A stretch of DNA of 33,447 nt from Desulfurococcales archaeon. GTDB taxonomy: Archaea > Thermoproteota > Thermoprotei_A > Sulfolobales > NBVN01. The translations under genes and the position numbers were made by a program. Positions 21,659 to 27,539 of this stretch are shown here, piece after piece. The notes beneath the pieces were generated by a model. The model saw only the letters and a list, made by a program, of their open reading frames with translations, searched no databases and was not told the DNA's origin. Numbering within the stretch: the stretch's first letter is position 1; the number at the start of each line of letters is the position of its first letter. The stretch is taken from the NCBI GenBank assembly GCA_027002995.1, contig JALWZB010000149.1:1-33447 (forward strand). Direction: 5' to 3'.

Positions 21659-22165
21659 TCAAGCACTCATGGACTCACTTAAGGTCCTCAGAACCTCATC
21701 GTATTCATTTTCCTTAATACGCGTCACAACATGGTAAACCGTGGGTGGGCTTAAGGAGTCCCTCTTAATGAGACCTAATACTTTCCTCGTGCTTATCGAT
21801 AGCCTCATGCGAAACGCCTCATCGAGGCTAAAGAACCCGGCATCCTCGCTTTCCTCGTTTAATCTAAGTTCGCCGCTAAAGTCCTTAATTAAGAAATCAA
21901 TAATGACATAATGATACTTCAAGTGTCCAGTAGTACTCAGGCAAATATACTCCGTAACCGCCAGCAACCTTGGATCATAACCAACTAAGCCCGTCTCCTC
22001 TAGCAATTCACGTAACACAGCCTCCTCCAGAGTTTCCCCTGGCTCCACATGTCCCCCTGGGAAAGACCAATACCCTGCTGACGGCTCAAACCTTCTCTTA
22101 ACCAGGAGTATCTTGTCCTGGTCTATGACAACAGCACCCACCCCTACCTTAGGTTGCGTGCTCAT
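21659..22165 (-). CDS. Nudix hydrolase
   Basis: A 168-residue pyrophosphohydrolase with a complete Nudix box G-x5-E-x7-REUxEExGU at residues 38-60 (GHVEPGETLEEAVLRELLEE). The first ~30 residues give the usual beta strands (VGVGAVVIDQDKILLVKRR), and WSFPGGH precedes the box. An extra C-terminal ~40 residues are not part of the core fold. Substrates of this group include ADP-ribose, 8-oxo-dGTP and NADH; the sequence does not say which. ATG start. It is divergent from the synthase-PadR gene, with a 95-bp gap. Confidence 0.88.
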   Translation of the reverse strand: MSTQPKVGVGAVVIDQDKILLVKRRFEPSAGYWSFPGGHVEPGETLEEAVLRELLEETGLVGYDPRLLAVTEYICLSTTGHLKYHYVIIDFLIKDFSGELRLNEESEDAGFFSLDEAFRMRLSISTRKVLGLIKRDSLSPPTVYHVVTRIKENEYDEVLRTLSESMSA

Positions 22166-22260: not shown

Positions 22261-23574
22261 ATGAAGAATGAGTTAACGTGTGTGGAGTGCGGCCGCACGT
22301 ACCCTGCGACGTCAGGCAGGGTTAGGTGCGTTTGTGGGGGGCAGTTAGTCCCAACCTTACCCAAAAGCTTGAGACGCGTTAACGCACCCGGTATTTGGTC
22401 CTGGGAAGCCGCCCTAATGACATCAGTATTTAGTGACAGGGTAACGCTGTACGAGGGAAACACACCGCTGGTACGCGCCCCTAAGCTAGCTAAGGAGCTT
22501 AACCTGAAGGAAATTTACCTTAAGGACGAGTCTAGAAACCCGTCAGGTACGTTCATAGACAGAGGTTCAGCAACCCTCGTTACCGCGACTAGGTCGTTGC
22601 GTCTAGCACGTCTAGTCACGGCGTCCTTAGGTGATTTAGGGGTATCGGTGGCTACATACTCTAGACGTGCAGGGCTCAGATGCAAGGTGATAATGCCCTC
22701 ATACATTACTCCAGTGAAGGCGTACCAGACGGCAATGCTGGCAGATAGTGTTGAGTATGTTGAGAGTTACGAGGAATCGCTGAGCAAGGCTTGGAAGTAT
22801 GGCTCAGCACCAGCCAGCATGCCAGTAACGCCACAGAACCCCTTCTTGCTTGATGGCTATAGAACCCTAGCCATGGAGATACTTACCGACCTGAGGACAG
22901 GGAAACCAGGCGTGGTACTTGTCCCCGTGGGGGACGGTGCCTTAGCTTACGCGACCCTGCAAATCATAAGCAAGTTCAGCCCAGACACGACGGTCATAGG
23001 GGTTCGAACATCCTCAAAGTCACCACTACTCAAAGACGTGGCTGTTGACCACCCTCTCTTCGCTGACCTACTTAAGGATCTAATGGACCGTAGTGGAGGA
23101 TACATGATTGAAGTTGAGGAGGACGATGTTGTGTCGGCGCTCAAGCTACTAGCAAGGTGCGAGGGAATGCTAACGGAACTCACCGGCGCTACGGCTGTCG
23201 CCGCATTGATTAAGCTATCTGACGACCTACGTAGTACGTCACCAATAGTCTCAATAATATCGGGAGGACCTGCCAGGGACCCGGCAGTCCTCAGGATGGT
23301 GGTGGGCGAGGGGCACCCCAGGTACTTAACAAGAATAGGCTTCACTAAAATGAAGATCCTAGAGATCCTTGCACTCCAAGGTCCCTTACACCCTTACGCC
23401 GTATGGAAGATCCTGAAGAGCGAGTACGGAGTGAACGTAAGTTTACGTTCCATATACCAGCACTTCAGCGAACTGAGCGAGATGCAGCTCGTGGAGAGTG
23501 CCGAGGAGAGGGAGGGTAAGAGGAGAAGGAAGGTGTTCAGAATAACGGATGAGGGTCTAAGCCTGATCAGGTAG
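22261..23574 (+). CDS. pseudo-threonine-synthase fused to PadR winged helix: putative regulator
   Basis: A 437-residue fusion. Residues 7-25 form a C-x2-C...C-x-C zinc knuckle. About 55-350 follow the threonine-synthase/fold-type II PLP plan. Residues 358-437 are a PadR-like winged helix (ALQGPLHPYAVWKIL, SLRSIYQHFSEL, KRRRKVFRITDEG). Cofactor residues are changed: NPSGTFIDRG (93-102) has I99 (ATA at 22555-22557) where the Schiff-base lysine of SFKDRG belongs; SLGDLGVSV (122-130) replaces the SxGNxxxS loop; and VGDGALA (223-229) replaces the VGNGG phosphate loop. Catalysis is therefore unlikely. I infer a ligand-sensing transcription factor. It is followed on the same strand by an ECF transporter. 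Confidence 0.85.
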   Translation: MKNELTCVECGRTYPATSGRVRCVCGGQLVPTLPKSLRRVNAPGIWSWEAALMTSVFSDRVTLYEGNTPLVRAPKLAKELNLKEIYLKDESRNPSGTFIDRGSATLVTATRSLRLARLVTASLGDLGVSVATYSRRAGLRCKVIMPSYITPVKAYQTAMLADSVEYVESYEESLSKAWKYGSAPASMPVTPQNPFLLDGYRTLAMEILTDLRTGKPGVVLVPVGDGALAYATLQIISKFSPDTTVIGVRTSSKSPLLKDVAVDHPLFADLLKDLMDRSGGYMIEVEEDDVVSALKLLARCEGMLTELTGATAVAALIKLSDDLRSTSPIVSIISGGPARDPAVLRMVVGEGHPRYLTRIGFTKMKILEILALQGPLHPYAVWKILKSEYGVNVSLRSIYQHFSELSEMQLVESAEEREGKRRRKVFRITDEGLSLIR

Positions 23575-23669
23575 TCCTTTCGCTAAGCACGGATGGACAA
23601 GGGTATTGAAGCGCATACTGAGGTTAACTCCCTTATTGATGGACACCTTCTTACAGGCTTGGGGAGATC

Positions 23670-24428
23670 ATGGGTAGGGTGAGCGTAGCTAAACTAGCGC
23701 TCTTCACGGCGCTAGTTTACGTGGCGACCATAGTCCTTCAGGTATACACACCCGCGACCAGAGGTTACTTCAACTTAGGCGAGACCGCTATCTACGCCAT
23801 AGCTGCTTTAGCAAATCCGTTGCTAGCCGGCATTGCTGCTGGTGTAGGGTCGGCGTTGGCGGACCTAACGACAGGTTACGGATATTTTGCACCCGGTACC
23901 TTAGTGATTAAATTTGTTGAGGGATTCACTGTAGCGTACCTAATGAGGAAGCTGGCCCCCAAATCAAGGTACTGGTTAGCTAGGGCGTTATCCGTGATTG
24001 CTTCGGTAGCCACTGGCGCCGCAATAGCCGCTGTAGGTTACTTCACACTATCGGGTCTATCGGAAATAACGTCAATACCGATTCAGGTCGGCGGCTTTGA
24101 GGTGACGGCCTTCTACGGTAAAATAGTGATCCCTAGCCTCGTGTGGTTGCTCATAGGCGTGCTAGTGACGGTGATACTACTGTACGCTGTCCTCGTAAGG
24201 AGTAAGGAGAACGTCTCTGCCGCAGCCTCTATGCTTGTGGGAGGTACGTTTATGGTGCTAGGATACTTCCTCTACGAGTTCTTCATCACGAACCCGCTGA
24301 TATATCACGCGCCGCCAGAACAGGCACTAGTGGAGGTACCAGTAAACTTTGGTCAAGTACTAGTTGGCATCACGGTCGCATTACCGATAACGTCATTCAT
24401 AAGAGAGGCTACTGGAAGTGAGGGTTAA
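23670..24428 (+). CDS. ECF transporter S component (vitamin-type)
   Basis: A 252-residue membrane protein with about six hydrophobic segments. The start VAKLALFTALVYVATIVLQV and the stretch FNLGETAIYAIAALANPLLAGIAAGVGSALADLTTGY with GTLVIKFVEG are typical of S components of the COG4720 type, a group that includes proposed hydroxymethylpyrimidine and pyridoxine carriers. The protein binds the vitamin and docks to the shared EcfT/ATPase module encoded downstream. ATG 23670 abuts GGGGAGATC; GTG 23679 is better spaced from it and is an alternative. The extra C-terminal ~60 residues are longer than most S components. The substrate is an inference. Confidence 0.85.
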   Translation: MGRVSVAKLALFTALVYVATIVLQVYTPATRGYFNLGETAIYAIAALANPLLAGIAAGVGSALADLTTGYGYFAPGTLVIKFVEGFTVAYLMRKLAPKSRYWLARALSVIASVATGAAIAAVGYFTLSGLSEITSIPIQVGGFEVTAFYGKIVIPSLVWLLIGVLVTVILLYAVLVRSKENVSAAASMLVGGTFMVLGYFLYEFFITNPLIYHAPPEQALVEVPVNFGQVLVGITVALPITSFIREATGSEG

Positions 24429-25671
24429 GGTAAAAGACTTAAACGTAGTTTTCGATGGTGCGAGTATTCTCTCAAACCTCAACTTAACAGTATGTGAGGG
24501 GGAGGCAGTACTCGTCACGGGACCGTCAGGGTCAGGTAAAACAACGTTGCTCAGAACGATCCTTGGCATAGTGCCTAATGTAATCTCCGGGTCGGTGAGG
24601 GGATTCATTGAGCCTGAGCCATGTATAATTAGAAGTAAAGCATATTACGTCCCTCAAGAGCCGTGGTTTTCCGTAATTACACCCTACGTCTGGTCCGAGA
24701 TAATGTCGTTTACTCCCTCCCAACTCGGGTTGGGAGACGTTGAGGATATGCTTAGTGCTTGGGGCATGAGCGGGTATGCCTTCAGGACAACGTACACCCT
24801 GAGCGCTGGGGAGCTACAGAGACTAGCGTTAATGGTGGCTATGCTCTCACGTAAGGAGGTAGTGTTGCTTGATGAGCCAGCATCACATCTAGACTCGAGA
24901 AACGCTGAGAAAGTCGTAAGAACCGTTAACGCGCTCAGGGACTCCGGCGTAGCAGTGATTATAGTTGATCATGACGTTAAGGCGTGGATGGGCTTAGTTG
25001 ATAAGGCCTACGTTCTCAGAAACGGCACGCTGGACGAAGACATCACGAGTTACTACAAGGAGTTTGATAAGCTAGTGAGTGAGCTAAGCAAGCCAAGGAC
25101 GCAGGGCGACACTGCACTTGAGGTAAGGGTAACCAAGTACAGACCTCCGGGATCACGCAAGATAGTGTTAGAAGACGTAGAGTTCACCGTGAGGAGGGGT
25201 GAGGTAGTGCTGGTGAAGGGCCCATCAGGCTCCGGTAAGACGACGTTGCTTAGGTTACTCGCAACGAGCGTCAAGGAGCCTGTGCCTGGCATAAAGGCTA
25301 ACGTCACCGGCAGGCTCATCTACGTCCCGGACAACCCTCTACTTTACTTCACAGAACCGATAGTAGCTAAGGAAGTGGGTGAAGGCGGTATTGAGAAGTT
25401 AAGGGAGTTCGGTATTACCGGCAGAGAATTCACGCCGATCACTAGGTTAAGCACGGGCGAGAGAAGAAGAGTGGCTGTGGCTTCAGCCATAGTTAGGGGT
25501 GCTTCAATTGTCGTCATGGATGAACCGACGGTGGGGCTAGATATTATCAGTAAGGTGCGGGTGTTGAAGGCCATAGTTAAGGCGGCTGAGGACGGCGCAG
25601 CTTTCGTTATCGCCTCCCACGATCCCCTGGTGGAACGCATAGCGAATAAGGTAGTGAACATCCATGGTTAG
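24418..25671 (+). CDS. fused ECF ATPases (EcfA-EcfA')
   Basis: A 417-residue protein with two ABC ATPase domains in tandem. Domain 1 (about 1-220): Walker A GPSGSGKT (35-42), Q80, signature LSAGELQ (128-134), Walker B VVLLDEP, H185. Domain 2 (about 234-417): Walker A GPSGSGKT (268-275), signature LSTGERR (344-350), Walker B IVVMDEP, H401; its Q-loop reads YVPD (302-305), with D in the Gln position. In ECF importers these are usually two separate proteins, EcfA1 and EcfA2. GTG start overlaps the S-component gene by 11 bp, and the 3' end overlaps ecfT by 8 bp. Confidence 0.92.
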   Translation: MRVKVKDLNVVFDGASILSNLNLTVCEGEAVLVTGPSGSGKTTLLRTILGIVPNVISGSVRGFIEPEPCIIRSKAYYVPQEPWFSVITPYVWSEIMSFTPSQLGLGDVEDMLSAWGMSGYAFRTTYTLSAGELQRLALMVAMLSRKEVVLLDEPASHLDSRNAEKVVRTVNALRDSGVAVIIVDHDVKAWMGLVDKAYVLRNGTLDEDITSYYKEFDKLVSELSKPRTQGDTALEVRVTKYRPPGSRKIVLEDVEFTVRRGEVVLVKGPSGSGKTTLLRLLATSVKEPVPGIKANVTGRLIYVPDNPLLYFTEPIVAKEVGEGGIEKLREFGITGREFTPITRLSTGERRRVAVASAIVRGASIVVMDEPTVGLDIISKVRVLKAIVKAAEDGAAFVIASHDPLVERIANKVVNIHG

Positions 25672-26371
25672 CGCAGGCACGGTGTTTCGGTGGATCTCCG
25701 AAGTTATATTCAGGTCAATCTTTGCTGGCGATGATACGCCGTTCAAGCACTCCACGCTACTAATAAACACACCTTTAGTCGTTACTCAGATACTCCTAGC
25801 ATCCGAGGGACCAACAGGAGTAGTTGTAACAATGGCATCCCTCTTAGCAGTTCACCTCATGGCAGGAACTTTAGAAGCGCTAGCATACGCGTTAATAATG
25901 ACTTCCTTGCCGGCAGTCTGGTACTTCCTGACAACACTACCATTTACAACATCTTTGACGACATCCGCCATAATTGCGTTCAGAGTAATCGCCGTTGGGT
26001 CAGCACTCTTAACGTTCATATACTTCCTGAACCCGCTGGAACTCTCAACGCTGGCACATAAGCTATGCCTTAAGAAAGTATCATTGTACCCAGCAATGAC
26101 GTGGAAGGTCACACCCCACGTGATGAGGGACATGAAGTCAGCAATGCTCTCGGCGGAATTAAAGGGTGAGAAACTCTGGAAGGCATTAGCAGTAACAATA
26201 CTTGCTGTGAACGAGTATAGCAGTATGTATGAAGAGGGAACCTACGCGCGTATGCAGGACTTCAAGCCACGGTACTGGTATGACGGCAAAGCAATGTTGG
26301 TATTCACCCTAATCCTTGCGGTAGACATTACTGTGTTACTCCTGCTCTACCTAAGGATGATTCCAGCTTAA
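25664..26371 (+). CDS. ECF transporter transmembrane T component
   Basis: A 235-residue membrane protein, the scaffold joining S component and ATPases. Hydrophobic segments lie at about 33-65, 69-90, 98-120 and 212-229, with a cytosolic coupling region between about 140 and 205 (KVTPHVMRDMKSAMLSAELKGEKLW). EcfT proteins carry two short A-R-G type coupling motifs that dock in the ATPases; here they are degenerate (SAELKG, TYARMQ). The name therefore rests on position and topology as much as motif. ATG overlaps the ATPase gene by 8 bp. Confidence 0.78.
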   Translation: MVSAGTVFRWISEVIFRSIFAGDDTPFKHSTLLINTPLVVTQILLASEGPTGVVVTMASLLAVHLMAGTLEALAYALIMTSLPAVWYFLTTLPFTTSLTTSAIIAFRVIAVGSALLTFIYFLNPLELSTLAHKLCLKKVSLYPAMTWKVTPHVMRDMKSAMLSAELKGEKLWKALAVTILAVNEYSSMYEEGTYARMQDFKPRYWYDGKAMLVFTLILAVDITVLLLLYLRMIPA

Positions 26372-26406: not shown

Positions 26407-26796
26407 ATGAACGTAACTCCGGGAGAGAAGTTCTCATTTAAATTCAAGGCAGGACCGGAACACTCAGCCAAACACGTGGGTTCAGGAGATGTTGACGTTC
26501 TCTCAACACCCTCAATGATACTATTTATGGAGGAAGCGTGCAGGCGATTCATGGATAGGCACTTACCAGAGAGCGAAACCACCGTCGGCACAAGGGTCGA
26601 TGTCTACCACGTGAAGGCAGCCCCTATCGGTAGTGAGATTGAGGTGCGAGGAACACTCCTAGCTGTTGAGGGGAGGAAGCTAGTGTTCTGGGTTGAGGCA
26701 TGGTACGGTGACCGACGCATAGGGTACGGCGTGCATGAGAGATACGTAGTGAATAGGGAGGCATTCATAAGCAAGCTTAAGGGTGAGAAGAAGTGA
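26407..26796 (+). CDS. hotdog thioesterase, FlK-like
   Basis: A 129-residue single hotdog domain. STPSMILFMEEACRRF and the following VDVYHVKAAPIGSEIEV match the fluoroacetyl-CoA-thioesterase-like family. T34, E42 and H68 are spaced exactly as the catalytic T42/E50/H76 of Streptomyces FlK. The natural substrate in archaea is unknown; a short acyl-CoA is likely, not fluoroacetyl-CoA. ATG start. It overlaps the next gene by 4 bp, showing co-transcription with the creatininase-family gene. Confidence 0.82.
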   Translation: MNVTPGEKFSFKFKAGPEHSAKHVGSGDVDVLSTPSMILFMEEACRRFMDRHLPESETTVGTRVDVYHVKAAPIGSEIEVRGTLLAVEGRKLVFWVEAWYGDRRIGYGVHERYVVNREAFISKLKGEKK

Positions 26797-27539
26797 AGGA
26801 ATGGGCCTCCCTAACAGGGAAGGAGTTCGAGGAAATACCTAAGGACGTAGCCATACTGCCAGTGGGTAGCTTAGAGAGGCACGGTGACCACCTACCCCTA
26901 GGAACAGATATATTCGCGCCCGAGCGGATAGCGCGTCAAGTAGCCAGTAAGTTGCGTGAGTATGGAGTATCAGCACTAGTAATGCCTACAGTGCCGTACG
27001 GATCCTCAAGAATCCTCGCCAAATTCCCTGGAACGATAAACGTTGATGACTCAGCTTTCAGGGAGTACGTCAAGTCAGTCTTGAAGGAAGCTCTAAGGAA
27101 TGGGTTCAAACTCATCCTAGTAATAAACGGTCATGGAGGAAACACGTCCCTACTCAGGGAAGCTGCGAGGGACGCCGCGTACAGTACTGGCGGGGCGGTA
27201 CTACTGATTAACTGGTGGACGGACGTAGCACAAGATAAGCGTAAGTCGCTCTTTCCAGAGGAAACCCTAGGCCATGCGGGGGCGGATGAAACCGCCGTGA
27301 TGATGGCTATAACACCTGACCTAGTCAAGATGGAGCACCTAAAGAAAAACCCGGTCAAGTATCCGTCACTAAGGCTATATTACAGGAAGTACGAGGAGGA
27401 AGTGCTCTTCCCTGAAGCACTCTCAGGTGACCCAAGCGTGGCAAACCCAGAGAAGGGCAGGGAGCTACTTGCGGCTGTTGTTGACGGTATTACTGACTCC
27501 GCGCTGAAAGCACTTAAACTAATTCAAGAATGTGGGTGA
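26793..27539 (+). CDS. creatininase-family amidohydrolase
   Basis: A 248-residue metal-dependent amidohydrolase. Family motifs: LPVGSLERHGDHLPLGTD (N-terminal metal ligands E, H, D), VPYGSSRILAKFPGT, LVINGHGGN, and HAGADETAVM with the late glutamate. In archaea the family includes ArfB, the formamide hydrolase of riboflavin/F420 synthesis; creatinine is an unlikely substrate. Whether this is ArfB cannot be decided by motif alone. GTG start overlapping the thioesterase stop; its 3' end overlaps the open region upstream of tyrS by a few bases. Confidence 0.85.
   Translation: MKEWASLTGKEFEEIPKDVAILPVGSLERHGDHLPLGTDIFAPERIARQVASKLREYGVSALVMPTVPYGSSRILAKFPGTINVDDSAFREYVKSVLKEALRNGFKLILVINGHGGNTSLLREAARDAAYSTGGAVLLINWWTDVAQDKRKSLFPEETLGHAGADETAVMMAITPDLVKMEHLKKNPVKYPSLRLYYRKYEEEVLFPEALSGDPSVANPEKGRELLAAVVDGITDSALKALKLIQECG

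Follow-up and report, generated by a model that had tools for sequence, protein, structure and literature searches.

The closest described counterparts of the regulator presented here are the MocR/PdxR proteins, a bacterial GntR-MocR subfamily that has been characterized as 'not present in Archaea' (PMC5320631). In these bacterial proteins a PLP-fold sensor of enzymatic origin, namely a fold type I aminotransferase, follows an N-terminal GntR winged helix, and their regulon comprises pdxST and B6 transport. On the transport side the nearest relative is the ECF transporter HmpT/PdxU2 (PDB code 4hzu), originally named after hydroxymethylpyrimidine, for which pyridoxamine has been reported as substrate (PMC4860826).

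At the level of individual domains three further families are to be compared, namely threonine synthase ThrC (PF00291), the PadR regulators (PF03551), and the NCBIfam entry NF004170/PRK05638, which carries the name 'threonine synthase'. PadR regulators possess a C-terminal helical domain, which serves dimerisation, after an N-terminal winged helix.

The DNA analyzed in this study, denoted the window, comprises the 33,447 nucleotides of contig JALWZB010000149.1 from a Desulfurococcales archaeon. Its gene at 22261–23574 very probably encodes a transcription factor controlling vitamin B6 supply in archaea, a function predicted here from sequence comparison alone.

Overall architecture and altered PLP site

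The features of the locus are collected in Table 1. The best PDB match for the fold of the window protein is threonine synthase from B. subtilis (6nmx, E 6.9e-22), and the AlphaFold model, built from 14 homologues, displays a threonine-synthase fold with a fold-type II core (pLDDT 84.6). A low-confidence linker (residues 350–357) precedes a winged helix at residues 360–436 with the topology helix-helix-helix-strand-strand-helix. The PadR match is well above threshold (38.8 bits, cut-off 27), and the boundaries given in the initial annotation (358–437) agree with both the Pfam match (366–432) and the model. Similarity to PadR regulators is confined to the winged-helix domain, which in the window protein is C-terminal and joined to a pseudoenzyme, a layout other than that of PadR regulators.

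Table 1. Features of the regulator gene and the adjoining ECF transporter genes (window coordinates).
Feature	Position	Strand	Basis
Regulator gene	22261–23574	+	Open frame of 437 aa; N-terminal zinc ribbon, then the PALP pseudoenzyme domain and, at the C-terminus, the PadR winged helix
PALP domain (fold-type II, threonine-synthase-like), residues 61–335	22441–23265	+	Pfam PF00291, E 6.5e-55; PDB matches are threonine synthases
I99 codon at the Schiff-base lysine position	22555–22557	+	Alignment with lysine-bearing ThrC-like proteins of own genome and relatives
SLGD in place of SxGN, residues 122–125	22624–22635	+	D125 in 18/18 I/M-class proteins
Glycine-rich phosphate-cup loop GDGA, residues 224–227	22930–22941	+	Alignment
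PadR winged-helix DNA-binding domain, residues 366–432	23356–23556	+	Pfam PF03551, E 9.6e-10; model topology
Predicted operator TATTGAAGCGCATACTGAGG, direct repeat of period 12	23604–23623	+	Directly upstream of TATA-like stretch of ECF operon
ECF transporter S component, predicted B6 vitamer substrate	23670–24428	+	PF07155, E 1.6e-25; profile matches HmpT
Fused double ECF ATPase (A-A')	24418–25671	+	PF00005, two stretches
Probable ECF T component	25664–26371	+	Position only: conserved after ATPase in I- and R-class loci

The window protein shares with ThrC the PALP fold, many PALP motifs and the zinc-ribbon-like N-terminus of archaeal ThrC-like proteins, but differs by the missing Schiff-base lysine, the changed PLP loops and the added DNA-binding domain. 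Isoleucine 99 lies within the motif NPSGTFIDRG, and the SxGN and glycine-rich phosphate loops typical of threonine synthase are not present either, the latter being replaced by VGDGAL (residues 223–228). What had been read from the sequence at the outset is confirmed, a fold-type II plan with I99 for the lysine and with both PLP loops altered; these loops read SLGD and VGDGA. Two separate lysine-bearing ThrC-like genes (L002 and L003), with the motif SFKDRG and without a winged helix, are present in the same genome.

The zinc-ribbon-like cysteines are encoded at 22261–22340; their second pair is of the type CxC (C23, C25) in the genus of the window and CxxC in nearly all relatives outside it.

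A sequencing error at 22555–22557, which would have invalidated the assignment, is ruled out, as the I99 change recurs in two congeneric genomes that were assembled separately (94–96% identity) and the lysine is replaced family-wide.

Loss of the lysine throughout the family

Close matches to the window protein are found in 14 of the 147 genomes of the order, its own genome counted, all of them with NP..xF[I/M]DRG-type motifs, S.GD-type and G[D/N]G loops. When the window protein and NF004170 were used to search the phylum, a larger family of identical two-domain architecture came to light, named relatives being Desulfurococcales and Sulfolobales MAGs, Zestosphaera tikiterensis, Candidatus Geocrenenecus and Nitrososphaerota. 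The family sample is restricted to one GTDB phylum.

None of the 76 sampled fusions of a PALP domain with a winged helix contains the lysine, its position being occupied by Arg (29), Ile (17), Ala (12), Ser (7), Leu (4), Val (4), Thr (2) or Met (1); ten lysine-bearing ThrC-like relatives are without a winged helix. For this count two further lysine-bearing relatives served as outgroups, L007, a protein of cysteine-synthase type, and L005, a threonine deaminase whose C-terminal domain is of a different kind. Fused homologues retaining the lysine, which would have contradicted the initial annotation, were looked for, and none was found among the proteins examined in the NF004170 and P0001 searches (about 400 genomes). 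The tabulation of residues it had called for reveals a loss that extends well beyond a single genome.

The residue at this position also delineates classes within the family. Among the 18 I/M-class homologues (17 Ile, one Met) Asp125, Gly224 and Gly226 are invariant; the PLP loops of the I class are eroded, with Asp replacing Asn in the SxGN loop. The R class keeps the S/T-x-G-N (SNGN) and G-S-G (GSGG) loops as well as the N1 threonine, and both it and the L/T class have PLP loops that are more intact than those of the window protein. Proteins of the A/S/V branch are shorter and have lost both loops. The residue classes form strong clusters in a quick tree, the deep branching order of which is poorly resolved; a single loss of the lysine across all fusions is likely from the sequences, but has not been shown.

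Family f21 includes four genomes (G156, G191, G328 and G372) in which a lysine-bearing ThrC-like gene is positioned divergently and adjoins the lysine-less regulator (L097:7098-8330, L099, L111, L115). This arrangement is compatible with an origin of the regulator by tandem duplication.

The initial annotation knew of no named family with this architecture, which holds in part only. NF004170/PRK05638 has the same two-domain architecture, its profile spans the winged helix and models one branch, the R class, over its full length, and its sampled members carry SFRDR without lysine (L029–L058). The window protein itself scores 176.7 bits against a curated cut-off of 421 and is not a member. On the other hand, no paper on the PALP-PadR architecture was found in a literature search limited to open-access papers.

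The ECF transporter locus

The regulator gene is followed by genes for the S component, the fused A-A' ATPase and the probable T component, in this order. The T component was assigned by position only because it has no Pfam match at E ≤ 1, which likewise applies to its R-class homologues. The family profile of the S component has a single PDB match at E < 0.01, namely HmpT (4hzu_S, E 3.2e-11), with the similarity residing mainly in the N-terminal 90 residues. Thus, the S component is homologous to that of HmpT/PdxU2, for which a B6 vitamer is the reported substrate, whereas B6 transport by the window system is itself inferred. In contrast to HmpT/PdxU2, the transporter described here is archaeal, has a longer S component and a fused A-A' ATPase, and is distant in sequence. 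An ECF S component adjoins the regulator in 39 of about 50 loci, which span classes I, R and L/T as well as the thaumarchaeal V class.

Several other genes are found in the neighborhood. A Nudix gene (21659–22165, minus strand) adjoins the regulator and is conserved there in 14 loci of the window's family, mostly in divergent orientation. Genes for a hotdog thioesterase similar to FlK and for a protein of the creatininase family (26407–27539) lie 3' of the ECF genes, also in several relatives, and are possible members of the ECF operon. In many R-class and thaumarchaeal loci (L094:6290-7315, L100:6468-7550, L116–L119, L079:7014-8039, L081:1095-2087) the S component gene is adjoined by an AIRS-family gene similar to HypE/ThiL, a candidate for an otherwise missing enzyme that phosphorylates or processes B6 vitamers.

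Linkage to pdxS-pdxT and B6 metabolism

The second genomic association of the family is with the genes for PLP synthase. The regulator gene stands ahead of pdxS in G029 and points away from pdxS-pdxT in G207, where 17 bp separate the divergent genes. Lysine-less regulators of the A/S/V branch lie beside pdxST at 20 of the 40 pdxS loci sampled from the order, and additionally in G036 and G071, which also carry an ECF-linked I- or R-class regulator.

The majority of sampled genomes with ECF-linked forms of the regulator are without pdxS. PdxS is absent from the window genome (97.8% complete), from 34 of 40 R/L-class genomes and from 10 of 14 I-class genomes, compared to 55 of the 133 remaining genomes of the order (Fisher p 0.046 for the I class). 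The window genome is predicted to be a B6 auxotroph. In G051, a genome of the window's genus, pdxS-pdxT is located on a 5.6-kb contig (L102, contig C183), and a recent loss, a gain or contamination may explain the difference from the window genome.

Auxotrophy does not in itself identify the transported compound. ThiC was not found in any of the 14 I-class genomes, 13 of which keep a ThiD-type kinase, so that auxotrophy alone is equally consistent with transport of B6 or of thiamine. Combined with the original naming of HmpT after hydroxymethylpyrimidine (PMC4860826), this leaves room for a regulator of thiamine supply, in which HMP or thiamine would be the cargo of the ECF system and a thiamine compound the ligand of the pseudoenzyme. 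The weight consequently rests on the operators.

Predicted operators

In the I class the S gene is preceded, some 60 nt ahead of its start codon, by a direct repeat with the consensus ATA[GT]TGAA-N4-ATA[GT]TG. Its period of 12 (z = 6.1 over 12 homologous promoters) is the only offset standing out among those from 9 to 21. TATTGAAGCGCATACTGAGG has a sole exact match in its own genome, the window site itself. With up to three mismatches allowed the genome yields 27 matches, only moderately more than the 17 of a reversed control pattern, so that no further regulon member is claimed for this genome.

The consensus sites were picked by eye on ECF promoters before any pdxS scoring, and the resulting matrices, from which pdxS promoters had been excluded, were scored on 50 pdxS promoters. 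With the I-class ECF matrix the pdxS promoter of G079 ranks first of the 50 (20.2, next 13.9), pdxS and regulator being on different contigs in this genome. The G029 site is modest (13.1, fourth of 50, exceeded in 0 of 400 shuffles), and the pdxS promoter of G051 contains no significant I-class operator (6.0, 87 of 400 shuffles).

R-class promoters of family f9 contain CTTAAAG-N5-CTTAAAG followed by TNTAAACTTTA, and the corresponding matrix yields 36.8 for the pdxS promoter of G065 versus at most 15.2 for the 49 others. In the entire 1.6-Mb genome of G065 the 23-mer of the ECF site matches two sites within three mismatches, one at the ECF operon (0 mismatches) and one at pdxS, 400 kb away (2 mismatches), whereas the reversed control 23-mer has no match there. 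A second R-class group, labeled 'bathyarchaeia-like' by us for phylum-level genomes, carries the palindrome TATAGTTATAACTATA at the S gene. Its matrix places the pdxS promoters of the regulator-bearing genomes G298, G191 and G372 as the top three of 50, with scores of 21–22 versus at most 9.3. Finally, a TTGAACGTTCAA-type palindrome is present in 16 of 22 pdxS promoters with an A/S/V regulator versus 1 of 28 without (Fisher p 2e-7).

A separate motif in each of four branches links the regulator to B6 genes, and the operators at pdxS decide for B6 where auxotrophy could not. Occurrence of the same operators and regulators at pdxS-pdxT in four separate branches, together with the descent of the sensor domain from a PLP enzyme, renders control of thiamine supply improbable. 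Equally slight prospects remain for a sensor of threonine-pathway metabolites such as O-phosphohomoserine or threonine that would coordinate these with the B6 genes. The origin of the domain from threonine synthase and the divergent ThrC-like neighbor in the four f21 genomes agree with such a role, but the targets seen are B6 genes, the ThrC-like genes of the window genome are located elsewhere, and all classes but R show a strongly eroded active site. That the protein is a working PLP enzyme, threonine synthase or another, with added DNA binding, as suggested by the NCBIfam name of the R class and its retained SNGN and GSGG loops, can practically be dismissed given the absence of the lysine from all fusions (76/76), the separate lysine-bearing genes L002 and L003 and the 177 bits of the window protein versus the NF004170 cut-off of 421.

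Control of B6 supply remains the best explanation, in which the family would serve Thermoproteota/Nitrososphaerota as a transcription factor responding to vitamin B6, much as PdxR/MocR serves bacteria. Control of B6 genes by the family is well supported, albeit as a predicted regulon without binding or expression data. The architecture, the fixed loss of the lysine, the linkage to ECF and pdxST genes and the shared operators, those at distant targets included, are established as far as sequence analysis can do so. The early suggestion of an enzyme turned into a ligand-controlled transcription factor with MocR/PdxR-like logic has accordingly gained support, the predicted targets being B6 import (ECF) and pdxST.

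Proposed mechanism of regulation

The regulator would have arisen from a threonine-synthase-like domain that lost the PLP lysine and was joined to a C-terminal PadR-type winged helix. By the latter it would bind the predicted operator sites, an inference without binding data. The pseudoenzyme domain would sense PLP or another B6 vitamer non-covalently. Since the Schiff-base lysine is missing, the absence of covalently bound PLP from the window protein is a sound inference; the identity of the ligand is untested. It is probably a B6 vitamer, though this too is inferred, and the branches may not all share a single ligand, since the PLP loops have decayed in the I class and disappeared from the A/S/V proteins. 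In the window genome the regulator is predicted to control the adjacent ECF transporter via the direct repeat, and in relatives pdxS-pdxT in addition.

Archaeal activators are situated upstream of the TATA box and repressors downstream of it. The I-class operator abuts the TATA-like box from upstream, at ECF and pdxS promoters alike, and the window protein is for this reason expected to be an activator at low B6, a sign of regulation that is inferred and only slightly favored over the opposite one. The bathyarchaeia-like branch has its palindrome immediately past the TATA box, on the downstream side, where a repressor would be expected to bind.

Implications

Compared with MocR/PdxR, the family presented here is built on fold type II instead of fold type I, lacks the lysine, carries a PadR-type winged helix at the C-terminus and occurs in archaea. 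It does not match MocR/PdxR in its domains but does so in its regulon of pdxST and B6 transport, which is predicted, not experimental. We lean towards regarding it as a hitherto unrecognized class of cofactor sensors, present at least in Thermoproteota/Nitrososphaerota. On this view a PLP enzyme of fold type II would have become a B6 sensor by losing its lysine and gaining a winged helix; the sensor would hold B6 vitamers without a Schiff base and control PLP synthesis and ECF uptake, fulfilling the PdxR/MocR role in archaea. This would represent convergent evolution of a PLP enzyme into a B6 sensor from a second fold, here without its catalytic lysine.

A 2023 survey leaves open how many prokaryotes transport and salvage B6 (PMC9997740). 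No regulator of B6 import or synthesis genes is known in archaea, and the family supplies a candidate, together with its operators and a B6 ECF transporter, all of them directly testable. The name 'threonine synthase' of NF004170 is probably wrong for the fused members, which would be regulators instead, with consequences for metabolic models of these archaea.
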